A DNA stretch of 28,974 nucleotides, taken from positions 1 through 28,974 of the IMG/VR virus record IMGVR_UViG_3300033143_002586; one strand, given 5' to 3'. Within the stretch, counting starts at the first letter, position 1, and each line of letters starts with the position of its first letter. This DNA comes from a virus. Below the pieces are notes generated by a model. It saw only the letters and a program-made list of their open reading frames with translations. It did no database searches and was not told where the DNA came from. The translations under genes were made by a program, and so were the position numbers. This document shows positions 9,760-26,093 of this stretch, piece by piece.

Positions 9760-10872
9760 TTATAGAGTTAAGACGTATTTTAATAACTCCGTTGAAACAT
9801 CAACACCAGAAGCTTTATCTATTCCAGTAGTTCCTGGGCAACTATTAACTTCTATGACAATTGGTTTTCCTTTAACAACAAAATGATCTACACCAGAGTA
9901 ATTTGCTTTAACAGCATGGTGGGATCTAAGTACAATTTCTTTTTCTTCATCATTTAATTCATATTTTTCGGCTTCTGCGCCTAATGTTATATTGCTTCTA
10001 AAATCTCCCTTTATCTTGTTCCTTCTTATAGATGCTACTATTTTACCATTTATAACGAATGTTCTAACGTCAAAATCAATTTTATGATATGGTTGGATAA
10101 GAACATCGTTGGCGTCTGATAACCAAATAGATTGTAAAATAGATGGTAATTGTTCGGGACTCTCAACTTTAACAACGCCTTTACCCAGTGATCCTCTAAC
10201 AGTTTTTACAATAACTGGAAATTTATTTCCAATTTTTTTCATCGCTGGTATTATTGAATCTTCATCTGATACCATGACGCTTTCTGGCGTTGGTATACCA
10301 TTTTCTTTTAACTTTTGAAATGTTTTATATTTAGATCCACATATTTTTATTGTTTCTTTTTGATTAACTACTGGTATCCCATTCTCTATTAAGAAATCAT
10401 AAAATGCTTCACGACCTGCTGTTAATTCTTGTCTAACCAATACTTTAACCTTTTTTGGATCTAGTATTAGTTTTTGTGGTTCTTCAAATCTATTATTTTT
10501 TATAAAAATATTTCCGTCTTTTTGTAATTCATAATAAACATTATCTAAAAATATAACATGAGCGGTTATACCCATTTTTTTTAATATTTTTAAATATTTA
10601 TTTTCATCTTTTCCAATACGATCTAAATTATCAATATTTTTAGCTTCAGTGGCGCTAGTAGCTATAATTACTATTTTTTCTTCTTGTTCTTTTAGATAAT
10701 TTTTAAATCCTTTCATATGATTACTCTCAATTTTTAAAATCTTTTTTAATGTTCCAACAATAGCGGCATAGTCTTCGCCATATTGTTTTTTTAAATCCTT
10801 CCAATGTTTTTCGACGACTGCTGGAGACTTACCTGATTGACGACTAAAAGCTTTAATTACAGATGATGGCAT
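9760..10872 (-). CDS. ATP-grasp (RimK-like) ligase with internal CTS
   Basis: This 370-residue protein has three parts. Residues 1-50 are a short helical domain (AFSRQSGKSPAVVEKHWKDL), a type seen in T4-like phage head proteins. At 53-62 lies MKGFKNYLKE, a typical CTS with L-K-E. From 66 on is an ATP-grasp ligase: the glycine-rich loop VKTVRGSLGKGVVK at 222-235, YSGVDHFVV (D329) and VIEVNSCPG (E341, N343) for ATP and metal. RimK-type enzymes ligate an amino acid to a protein or small carboxylate; the substrate here is unknown. AGGA precedes ATG 10872, and a GAGAG site also precedes the internal ATG 10716, so a short form starting at the CTS is possible. Confidence 0.85.
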   Translation of the reverse strand: MPSSVIKAFSRQSGKSPAVVEKHWKDLKKQYGEDYAAIVGTLKKILKIESNHMKGFKNYLKEQEEKIVIIATSATEAKNIDNLDRIGKDENKYLKILKKMGITAHVIFLDNVYYELQKDGNIFIKNNRFEEPQKLILDPKKVKVLVRQELTAGREAFYDFLIENGIPVVNQKETIKICGSKYKTFQKLKENGIPTPESVMVSDEDSIIPAMKKIGNKFPVIVKTVRGSLGKGVVKVESPEQLPSILQSIWLSDANDVLIQPYHKIDFDVRTFVINGKIVASIRRNKIKGDFRSNITLGAEAEKYELNDEEKEIVLRSHHAVKANYSGVDHFVVKGKPIVIEVNSCPGTTGIDKASGVDVSTELLKYVLTL

Positions 10873-21858: not shown

Positions 21859-22055
21859 ATAATTTTATTCTCATAGGCAGGATTCTGTTTTAACCTATAT
21901 TTATCTATTGGCCGAAACCTTGTCATAATAGTGTTGCTCACCCACTAGACTGTTTTTCGTTGCAACCTCGGTAGTAATAACGGTATAACCTCCTACCTTA
22001 AGCAATATTGTCCTGACCTTCCTCTCCGTAGAGCATAGGTTCGGAATAAAATTAT
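21859..22055 (-). ncRNA. rnpB: Minimal RNase P RNA candidate
   Basis: A 197-nt RNA closed by a perfect 12-bp P1 (22055-22044 with 21870-21859). Inside, P2 is AACCTAT/ATAGGTT (22041-22035 with 21898-21892), and P3 is CTC-TACG-GAG. CR I reads GAGGAAGGTC (22024-22015) and CR V reads ACAGAATCCTGCC. These two pair as P4, AGG-U-CAGGA with TCCTGCCT, leaving the hallmark bulged U. AGATAAAT matches CR IV, and TAGTG-GGTGAGCAA-CACTA resembles P12/CR III. It lacks most of the bacterial specificity domain. It would cut 5' leaders from the adjacent tRNAs, with or without the host protein. It starts directly after tRNA-Leu(UAA). Confidence 0.85.
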
Positions 22056-22129
22056 TAGTCGCGATGAGATTCGAACTCATACTGGAAAGGGCTTAAACCT
22101 TTTGCCTCCTGCCGTTGGGCTACGCGACC
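22056..22129 (-). tRNA. tRNA-Leu(UAA), short variable loop
   Basis: Acceptor GGTCGCG/CGCGACT, D arm GCC/GGC, anticodon stem AAAGG/CCTTT, loop TTTAAGC (TAA). T arm ATGAG/CTCAT with TTCGAAT. The variable loop has 5 nt, unusual for Leu, and base 37 is G. Confidence 0.88.
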
Positions 22130-22134
22130 ACTAT

Positions 22135-22713: not shown

Positions 22714-23280
22714 CTATTTTCTTCCTATCCTACCTTTGCCTTTATTAAGGTTTTTATAAGTAGGAGTAAGACTATGACAATTTGGACATAATAATTCTAA
22801 ATTGTCTTCTTTATTATTTAACCAATTACCATCTTTATGATCAATCTCCAATGGATGATTTTTTGTAATTGGATTTATTTTATCCCATCCACATTTACAA
22901 CATTTACTATTATACTTTTCGAACAAGTATCTTCTAATGTGCATTGATGTGCTAAATTTTCCTTTAAGGCCATTTTCGTTTCCTTGTTTCCATCTGTCCA
23001 CATATTCTTTATATTCTTTTTTTCTTTGACATGTTTTACTACAATATTTAATTTGTTTTTTATCATAATTATTATCTTCTAATTTTTTACCACAATTTTT
23101 ACAATTTTTATCTTCTTTTTTTAATCCAATTCTATAAACCATTTTATATTTTGGTTTGTACAACCCGAATTTTCTCGCCCAGTTGGCTACAGTTTTGTCA
23201 CATACTCCATATTGTTTACCAATATATACATATGAAAAATTATCATCTAAATATTTAACTAGTTTGTCTTTATCAATCAT
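22714..23280 (-). CDS. HNH homing endonuclease
   Basis: A 188-residue protein. The N-terminal helix-turn-helix YIGKQYGVCDKTVANWARKFG is followed by a CxxC...CxxxC zinc part (KNCGKKLEDN ... KYCSKTCQRK). The C-terminal HNH nuclease has CCKCGWDK, LEIDHKDGNWLNNKEDNLELLC and PNCH. AGGAG lies 7 nt before the ATG, and a late promoter lies at 23308-23315. It is a mobile gene placed in the tRNA array. The stop abuts tRNA-Cys, suggesting insertion precisely upstream of that tRNA or recognition of it. Confidence 0.92.
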   Translation of the reverse strand: MIDKDKLVKYLDDNFSYVYIGKQYGVCDKTVANWARKFGLYKPKYKMVYRIGLKKEDKNCKNCGKKLEDNNYDKKQIKYCSKTCQRKKEYKEYVDRWKQGNENGLKGKFSTSMHIRRYLFEKYNSKCCKCGWDKINPITKNHPLEIDHKDGNWLNNKEDNLELLCPNCHSLTPTYKNLNKGKGRIGRK

Positions 23281-24665: not shown

Positions 24666-24738
24666 TGGGACGAGTTGGTAACGATCCAACCTTTCAGGCT
24701 CTTCAAGCCCGCACTGATCCATCTCAGCTTATCGTCCC
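24666..24738 (-). tRNA. tRNA-Phe(GAA)
   Basis: Acceptor GGGACGA/TCGTCCC, anticodon stem CGGGC/GCCTG, loop TTGAAGA (GAA), T arm GTTGG/CCAAC with loop ATCGTTA. Confidence 0.92.
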
Positions 24739-24824: not shown

Positions 24825-24896
24825 TGAGAAAGGTGAATTCCGAGATCACAATCTTGAGCATGTAACACTCCTGCTTTGCCTTTAAGCTACTTTCCC
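24825..24896 (-). tRNA. tRNA-Val(UAC)
   Basis: Acceptor GGGAAAG/CTTTCTC, loop GTTACAT (TAC), with one mismatch in the anticodon stem and an irregular T arm (GTGA/TCAC). Functional state less certain than its neighbours. Confidence 0.78.
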
Positions 24897-25267: not shown

Positions 25268-25339
25268 CAGAGATATCGGGGAACGATCCCAAAACTGCAG
25301 ATTCAAAGTCTGCCGAGTTGCCAATTACTCTATATCTCT
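25268..25339 (-). tRNA. tRNA-Gln(UUG)
   Basis: Acceptor AGAGATA/TATCTCT, discriminator G, anticodon stem GCAGA/TCTGC, loop CTTTGAA (TTG), T arm TTGGG/CCCGA. Its first two bases are shared with the stop codon of the endonuclease gene. Confidence 0.91.
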
Positions 25340-26093
25340 ATAAATACCTATCACCAATTTTAATAATTTGTCTTTTATCATTATAAATTATTTTTTCTAA
25401 TTCTTTTAAATTCTTATCTTTAAATTTTAATTCGTCTATTCTAACTAATTTATAGTTATTTTTCTTACACCATCTTTCTAATAATTTATCTTTAATTTGT
25501 TTCTTCCTTAATTGGTTATGAATATCCTTAAAATGCCAAACTCCATCATATTCAAAACATATTTTTAATTTTTTAGAATATAAATCTCTAACTATTCTTT
25601 GCCCTAATACTTTTAAAGAGCCTCCGAAAGTCCATTCGTCGTTGGGAAACTTTTTAATAAAATGTTCTCTAATCAAAACCTCATTCTTACTCGTAAAAAT
25701 TGATTTTTTATTTGACATAACTTTTTTTATATAATCTTCATTTTGCCATAATTTTAGAGATGCAATTCTATTTTTTTCTCTTTTTTTATCATTAATATCT
25801 TTTGTTTGTATTCTGCTATTAGCACAACTAACATTACAAAAATACTTTTCCTTTTTCGGAAAATGTTTTTCCCGTTCAACCACGTGGAACATTTTCCCAC
25901 ATTTTTTACAATCAACTTTAAACGATTTTAATTTTCCCAATTCTTCATCATCTCTTTTTTTCTTAGAAATAGAAATATTTTTTGTATTATTTCTACTGGG
26001 ATTTTTCTTACACCACCTTACATGGTTAGAAAAATTTCTACTTGATTCTACCGATATTGTTTCATTACAATGTTTGCATATATTTTCATACAT
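25338..26093 (-). CDS. Homing-type endonuclease with zinc fingers and Vsr-like nuclease
   Basis: A 251-residue protein. An N-terminal ICKHCNETISVESSRNFSNH finger (CxxC...H) is followed by a second zinc part CKKCGKMFH...YFCNVSC. The middle (SLKLWQNEDYIKKVMS) is helical, like NUMOD-type DNA-binding segments. The C-terminal RIVRDLYSKKLKICFEYDGVWHF is a Vsr/EDxHD-type nuclease core related to that of 15494-16429. AAGGA lies 7 nt before the ATG, and a late promoter lies at 26113-26120. The stop overlaps tRNA-Gln by 2 nt. Confidence 0.87.
   Translation of the reverse strand: MYENICKHCNETISVESSRNFSNHVRWCKKNPSRNNTKNISISKKKRDDEELGKLKSFKVDCKKCGKMFHVVEREKHFPKKEKYFCNVSCANSRIQTKDINDKKREKNRIASLKLWQNEDYIKKVMSNKKSIFTSKNEVLIREHFIKKFPNDEWTFGGSLKVLGQRIVRDLYSKKLKICFEYDGVWHFKDIHNQLRKKQIKDKLLERWCKKNNYKLVRIDELKFKDKNLKELEKIIYNDKRQIIKIGDRYL

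Follow-up and report, generated by a model that had tools for sequence, protein, structure and literature searches.

A natural bacterial-type RNase P RNA without an S (specificity) domain is likely encoded inside the tRNA array of a T4-like phage, where it would join the RnpA protein and cut the 5' ends of the phage tRNAs. The gene lies on the minus strand of the window, by which we mean the whole 28,974-nucleotide stretch of viral DNA that was analyzed. Our results show that the C-domain fold is kept and that the S domain is replaced by a mini-domain made of a short P7 and a hairpin. These two points rest on sequence, while catalysis, expression and binding are inferred, as there are no assay data. 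An earlier note on the window had proposed that the phage encodes an RNase P RNA of about 197 nt, which lacks most of the specificity domain and lies inside a tRNA array. This claim held as far as identity is concerned, and cleavage activity is inferred. The identity is supported because four lines of evidence agree: the phage gene context, a model match obtained without the window in the training set, compensatory changes in P1, P2, P4, P5, P6 and P16/P17, and significant scores with the bacterial class A model RF00010 in several homologues.

The gene content of the window is that of a phage and includes a T4-type terminase, a gp15-type tail sheath stabiliser and a neck protein. Among the best matches of the terminase, which are mostly cyanophages, identity to named phages does not exceed 38%. 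ARAGORN called 19 tRNAs in the window, and two more tRNAs not called by ARAGORN (24666-24738 and 24825-24896, minus strand) exceed the Rfam gathering score. The tRNAs are spaced as closely as 3 nt and none of them has an encoded CCA. In this tight spacing and lack of encoded CCA they resemble the tRNAPro-tRNASer dimer of T4, which is processed by RNase P (PMC11143913). Two HNH-type endonuclease genes are found inside the array (22714-23280 and 25338-26093, minus strand), the second being a weak match. Elsewhere in the window, a gene at 9760-10872 (minus strand) encodes a RimK-like ATP-grasp protein (Pfam E 9.7e-43), which might modify ribosomal protein S6 or some other protein.

The 197-nt RNA begins at 22055, immediately next to the discriminator base of tRNA-Leu(UAA), and 3' of the gene there is a small ORF starting at about 21838 with AAGGA upstream of that start. 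The elements kept in the window RNA are P1-P5, P7, P16/P17, the P6 pseudoknot, CR I, CR V and the L15 GGU (Table 1), and all 58 proposed pairs are canonical, counting P1-P7, the mini-hairpin, P16 and P17. P4 is formed by AGG(U)CAGGA with UCCUGCCU and has 8 of 8 pairs in addition to the bulged U. The elements also follow the order expected for RNase P RNA, with the 5' strand of P4 before its partner UCCUGCCU, and AGAUAAAU before ACAGAA. Apart from P7 and one short hairpin the S domain is absent, the elbow-binding motifs are missing, and P18 is not present in the window RNA. Folding of the single sequence is only modestly unusual (z = -2.6).

Most structural claims of the earlier note held. P4 with its bulged U and the conserved blocks are in the right order, all on the minus strand; P1 is a perfect 12-bp helix; and the RNA starts right after a tRNA. 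The perfect 7-bp P2 was also confirmed as seven Watson-Crick pairs, to which a closing G-U adds an eighth. The reading of GTG-GGTGAGCAA-CAC as P12/CR III failed, as this segment is the P16/P17 hairpin. P12/CR III is ruled out for the GGUGAGCAA hairpin on two grounds: the loop of this hairpin forms P6 with the UUGCUUA strand before P7, with which it also covaries, and the hairpin aligns to P16/P17.

Table 1. Elements of the S-domain-free RNase P RNA and its upstream tRNA in the window.
Feature	Position	Strand	Support
Whole S-domain-free RNase P RNA gene, P1 to P1'	21859..22055	minus	197 nt; covariance model core match 22024..21875
P1 5' strand AUAAUUUUAUUC	22044..22055	minus	12/12 pairs with 21859-21870; P1 covaries in homologues, 0/2000 permutations
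P1 3' strand GAAUAAAAUUAU	21859..21870	minus	partner of P1 5' strand; pairing and covariation
P2 5' strand AACCUAUG, pseudoknotted helix	22034..22041	minus	8/8 pairs; covaries, 0/2000
P2 3' strand UAUAGGUU	21892..21899	minus	pairing and covariation
P3 mini-hairpin CUC-UACG-GAG	22024..22033	minus	pairing in window
CR I GAGGAAGGUCAGGA, including P4 5' strand (22019-22011) with bulged U at 22016	22011..22024	minus	
ACAGAAUCCUGCCU, joining strand and P4 3' strand (21882-21875)	21875..21888	minus	
P5 5' strand CAAU	22007..22010	minus	4/4 pairs with 21966-21963; 100% paired in homologues
P5 3' strand GUUG	21963..21966	minus	pairs with P5 5' strand
P6 5' strand UUGCUUA	21999..22005	minus	7/7 pairs with 21940-21934; covaries between homologues
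P6 3' strand UGAGCAA, in P17 loop	21934..21940	minus	pairing and covariation
P7 (GGUAG/CUACC) closing 28-nt mini-domain with GGU-UAU-ACC hairpin, replacing S domain	21970..21997	minus	
UGCAACGAAAAACAG, counterpart of E. coli J5/15 GAGCAAGGCCAAAUAG	21950..21964	minus	DLP6 alignment to RF00010 positions
P16/P17 hairpin (GUC UAGUG ... CACUA ... GAC)	21922..21950	minus	
L15 GGU motif (AGGUUUCGGCC), would-be pairing site for tRNA 3'-RCCA	21910..21920	minus	
CR V AGAUAAAU	21899..21906	minus	
tRNA-Leu(UAA), directly 5' of RNA	22055..22130	minus	Rfam tRNA match ends at 22056

Comparison with the Rfam RNase P models, which the earlier note had named as a check, failed on the window alone and was passed only through homologues. 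At the Rfam gathering scores, cmscan of the window returned 20 tRNAs and no RNase P, and the local stretch around the RNA did not match any of the Rfam RNase P models, including the archaeal and type T models, even at E = 10. As the window RNA is silent in Rfam, relatives were needed to settle its identity.

A blastn search of phage records gave one true homologue, in the uncultured 642-kb phage LR756502.1. Further homologues were found by blastn in LR756501.1 and LR756503.1 (735 kb), in LR756511.1 (595 kb), and in the cultured T4-like Stenotrophomonas phage vB_SmaS-DLP_6 (DLP6; KU682439.2, 168 kb), where the RNA (about 105774-106022) is unannotated and located between gp165 and tRNA-Arg within a tRNA cluster. 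Pattern scans of viral contigs scored with a descriptor combining P4 and CR V were sharply bimodal: 33 loci, about 30 of them distinct, scored 11 to 13 points with the window's own locus excluded, and one chance hit scored 7. Including later model matches, about 40 or more phage sequences carry a homologue. Exactly one copy was found in each of the 13 large phage records tested, and no copy was found in six control phages (T4, KVP40, S-CRM01, S-SCSM2R, V45v66 and crAss001). Bacterial contamination is an unlikely source of these RNAs, since none of the 13 large phage records contained 16S rRNA and 9 of them had a recognisable terminase. A search of 257 Gb of bacterial and archaeal genomes with a single CR V-based pattern, which is a weak test, gave no true S-domain-free copy; its two matches (L210 and L211) were rejected, as they scored at most 15.7 bits and lay elsewhere in the sequence. 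Another pattern, TGCAACNNAAACAGN{28,58}AATAGA, was discarded as too loose, giving mostly chance matches.

RF00010 recognizes several of these homologues. The DLP6 RNA scores 54.7 bits (E 1.7e-14 to 3.3e-17 depending on search space), the RNA of a 476-kb contig 48.9 bits (E 8.4e-15), and the loci L005 and L118 49.7 bits (E 2.7e-12) and 38.3 bits (E 2e-8), respectively. These matches run from end to end of the model (positions 1-367). In the DLP6 alignment, the S-domain positions of the model fall in a deletion, while AGCAAGCCAAACAGACC...GGUCGGGU is placed on the J5/15-P15-P16/17-GGU region. A 264-nt piece of DLP6 gave no cmscan match, whereas 1.5-kb and 8-kb pieces containing the RNA both gave 54.7 bits; the missing match likely reflects how the search behaves on very short input. 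One more homologue (L186) matched RNaseP_arch weakly (E 3e-4). The RF00010 gathering score of 100 bits is not met by any homologue tested, the four matched ones scoring 38-55 bits, and this explains the gap in annotation of these RNAs.

A covariance model was trained on ten homologues, with the window and P1-P3 left out. The underlying alignment spanned P4 to P4'; three MAFFT alignments in which P2/P3 were misplaced were rejected. When run on the whole window, the model gave a match at 22024..21875 with 139.1 bits (E = 2.2e-32), and the next best hit had 12.5 bits. Against E. coli M1 RNA the same model gave a weak and partial match of 16 bits. Chance resemblance, or another non-coding RNA of tRNA arrays, could be argued from the silence of Rfam on the window alone. 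However, the strength of the model match to the window, together with end-to-end RF00010 matches in homologues at E 2e-8 to 3e-17, leaves practically no room for this explanation.

The search for covarying homologues, also named as a check in the earlier note, was passed, with compensatory changes found in P1, P2 and P4. With the P6 pseudoknot counted, 91% of cells in the ten-homologue alignment are paired compared to 71% after shuffling, and double-sided changes occur at 22 of 35 pairs. Double-changed cells number 61 against 18 expected, and none of 500 shuffles matched the observed value on any covariation measure. Sliding the partners by 1 to 3 columns reduces pairing to 30-44%. An alignment-free test, in which 3' strands were swapped between sequences, lowered the scores of P1, P2, P4, P5 and P6, and none of 2000 permutations did as well; for P16/P17 one of 2000 did. 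As the sequences are related to one another, these counts cannot be read as exact probabilities, but there are many differences and they are spread across diverged phages.

P4 is paired in 100% of cells in the ten homologues, with double changes at 5 of 8 pairs. In LR756502.1 it reads AGU(U)CAAC with GUUGACU, i.e., the letters are unlike those of the window while the helix and the bulged U are the same. P6 occurs as UUGCUU/GAGCAA, CCGCUU/GAGCGG, CUUCUU/GAGAAG, GAAACU/AGUUUC and GACAC/GUGUC. P7 is paired in 94% of cells with double changes at 3 of 5 pairs, and judging from sequence alone the remaining P7 appears to close GGA-[hairpin]-GNNNRYA in homologues. P3 is CAC/GUG or CUC/GAG in most homologues and longer in some. 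Within the J5/15 counterpart UGCAA is invariant, and the L15 GGU is in the same place in every homologue examined. Collectively, the sequences show strong selection on the fold in many phages.

The RNA could instead be a decaying relic of a captured bacterial rnpB, with the S domain lost by degeneration. The missing S domain and the lack of a Rfam match for the window would fit such a relic. However, all window pairs are intact, compensatory differences are many across diverged phages, the replacement mini-domain is conserved, and each genome has one intact copy. Decay would not produce such a pattern, and a relic is therefore close to excluded.

Some homologues depart from the compact form of the window RNA, with variable insertions at the S-domain site in some phages. 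The longest homologue (L049:590-880), with a core of about 347 nt, has a large P7 insertion that may include coding sequence. In L026:766-977, the loop replacing the S domain holds a tRNA T-arm-like stretch, GTGGGTTCAAGTCCCAC, where ARAGORN finds no tRNA. In L201:1998-2792 (also L185 and L203) and in L006:22-834, several hundred extra bases split the RNA gene close to P16/P17, so that the model matches the RNA in two pieces; read by eye, the insert resembles a GIY-YIG homing endonuclease ORF. Neighboring RNAs were observed as well. The DLP6 record contains a permuted tmRNA (L207:866-1087; RF04321, 136.8 bits) which is absent from its listed features, at L027:426-1037 a tmRNA adjoins and slightly overlaps a group I intron match, and one phage tRNA region with an RNase P RNA also holds a GOLLD RNA just above the gathering score (L118:5662-6168).

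Compared to bacterial type A RNase P RNA (RF00010, E. coli M1), the phage RNA shares P1, P2, P3, P4 with the bulged U, P5 and the P6 pseudoknot with P16/P17, and it also has J5/15, the L15 GGU, CR I and CR V; the order of all these elements is unchanged. P6 marks type A rather than type B. The phage RNA differs in lacking the S domain (P8-P14 and the conserved motifs), the window RNA also lacks P18, and its 197 nt compare to 340-420 nt in bacteria (PMC4919922). Canonical type A RNA is defined in part by its S domain, which was tested for here and is absent, and we therefore class the phage RNA as a variant and not as an ordinary type A member.

Natural RNase P RNAs without an S domain are known from Thermoproteaceae archaea (PMC12974513, PMC4919922). 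In the type T/type P RNA of this family, e.g., in Pyrobaculum (Lai et al., 2010, cited in PMC12974513 and PMC4919922), the S domain is nearly absent as in the phage RNA, and P6 is reported to be present in type T (PMC5839562). Type T RNA is also about equal in size to the phage RNA. However, these RNAs belong to archaeal hosts and work with several protein subunits, while the phage RNA has bacterial type A details and one phage has a bacterial RnpA. The diverged RNase P RNAs found in CPR bacteria (Lui et al., 2021; PMC8172020) resemble the phage RNAs in having lost helices and in falling below standard Rfam thresholds, but they are cellular and about two thirds of them lack the CCA-binding UGG motif, whereas the phage RNAs keep GGU.

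Almost exactly the phage architecture is seen in the engineered E. coli C-domain RNA, Eco CP RPR, which cleaves substrates with or without C5, even with P18 deleted and a mini P3 (Mao et al., 2018; PMC5839562). A P6 mimic contributes to the activity of the engineered C-domain (PMC5839562). Like this RNA, the phage RNA has no S domain, no P18, a short P3 and a retained P6 contact. The difference is that Eco CP RPR is a laboratory construct of reduced efficiency, while the phage RNA occurs in nature and carries a conserved mini-domain of its own at P7. By analogy with the active engineered E. coli RNAs of the same architecture, catalysis by the phage RNA is plausible, although inferred.

One of the phages encodes a protein partner. 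LR756502.1:525189-525473 (L205, L206) encodes a 101-aa RnpA with 52.5 bits to TIGR00188 (cut-off 38.35), an E-value of 3.4e-14 to PF00825, an RNRVKR motif and matches to solved RnpA chains. A recognisable RnpA was not found in the other phage records searched, and host RnpA must therefore be assumed for those phages. In the mechanism we propose, the RNA would be released from a co-transcript with the phage tRNAs, and 3' processing of tRNA-Leu would define its 5' end. It would bind RnpA through the retained P2/P3/P4 and CR V region, using host RnpA or, in the 642-kb genome, the phage-encoded one. The complex would then cleave the 5' leaders of the closely spaced phage tRNAs. Having lost the portion that holds the tRNA elbow, the RNA would recognise only the acceptor stem, the cleavage site and the 3'-RCCA. 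With no encoded CCA on the window tRNAs, the GGU contact would need prior CCA addition.

A true RNase P RNA relative might also act as a decoy which binds host RnpA and slows host tRNA processing, with little cleavage of its own. The retained RnpA-binding side, the loss of the elbow-binding domain and the lack of an own RnpA in most phages fit this reading. However, the RNA retains the L15 GGU and the P6 pseudoknot, neither of which a decoy would need, along with the catalytic P4, and its helices covary. The location inside phage tRNA arrays suggests service to those tRNAs, and one phage brings its own RnpA. We consider a decoy unlikely.

Even less likely is that the RNA acts on non-tRNA substrates, such as phage tmRNA or leader RNAs, with tRNA proximity being incidental. 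Most copies are located among tRNA genes, often with a tmRNA. For this alternative speak the tmRNA or permuted tmRNA genes near several copies, and the copies of three huge phages (L001, L208 and L209) with no tRNA within the fetched flanks. On the other hand, many tRNAs flank most copies, and RNase P also matures tmRNA, so this explanation overlaps with our main reading of an RNA serving phage tRNA maturation.

A bolder form of this main reading is that the RNAs form a distinct natural RNase P class in several phage lineages, including some of the largest phages known. Lacking the S domain, and accompanied at least once by a phage-encoded RnpA, such an RNA would take over phage tRNA maturation independently of the host RNA and with a recognition unlike that of the host enzyme. 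We lean slightly towards this view. We found no report of a phage RNase P RNA in the open-access literature searched; subscription journals and preprints were mostly outside this search, and priority is therefore uncertain. The sections of the CPR study bearing on the subject do not mention one (PMC8172020), "RNase P" is absent from the main text of the huge-phage paper that describes complete genomes of 642 and 735 kb (PMC7162821), and a term search of the DLP6 genome paper, which reports 30 tRNAs, did not find RNase P mentioned (PMC5349666).

Only two ribozymes are nearly universal, RNase P RNA being one of them, and the general assumption is that phages rely on that of the host. A widespread and unannotated phage version means that phages carry one of the core ribozymes of translation. 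These are natural bacterial-type RNAs cut down to the catalytic domain, a state so far seen in cells only in Thermoproteaceae archaea, and for bacteria in engineered constructs. It becomes directly testable whether natural RNAs can do without the S domain and how its loss affects substrate choice, and DLP6 is a cultured phage that offers a test system. With catalysis still inferred, the dozens of unannotated copies suggest that many phages may bring their own tRNA-processing enzyme.
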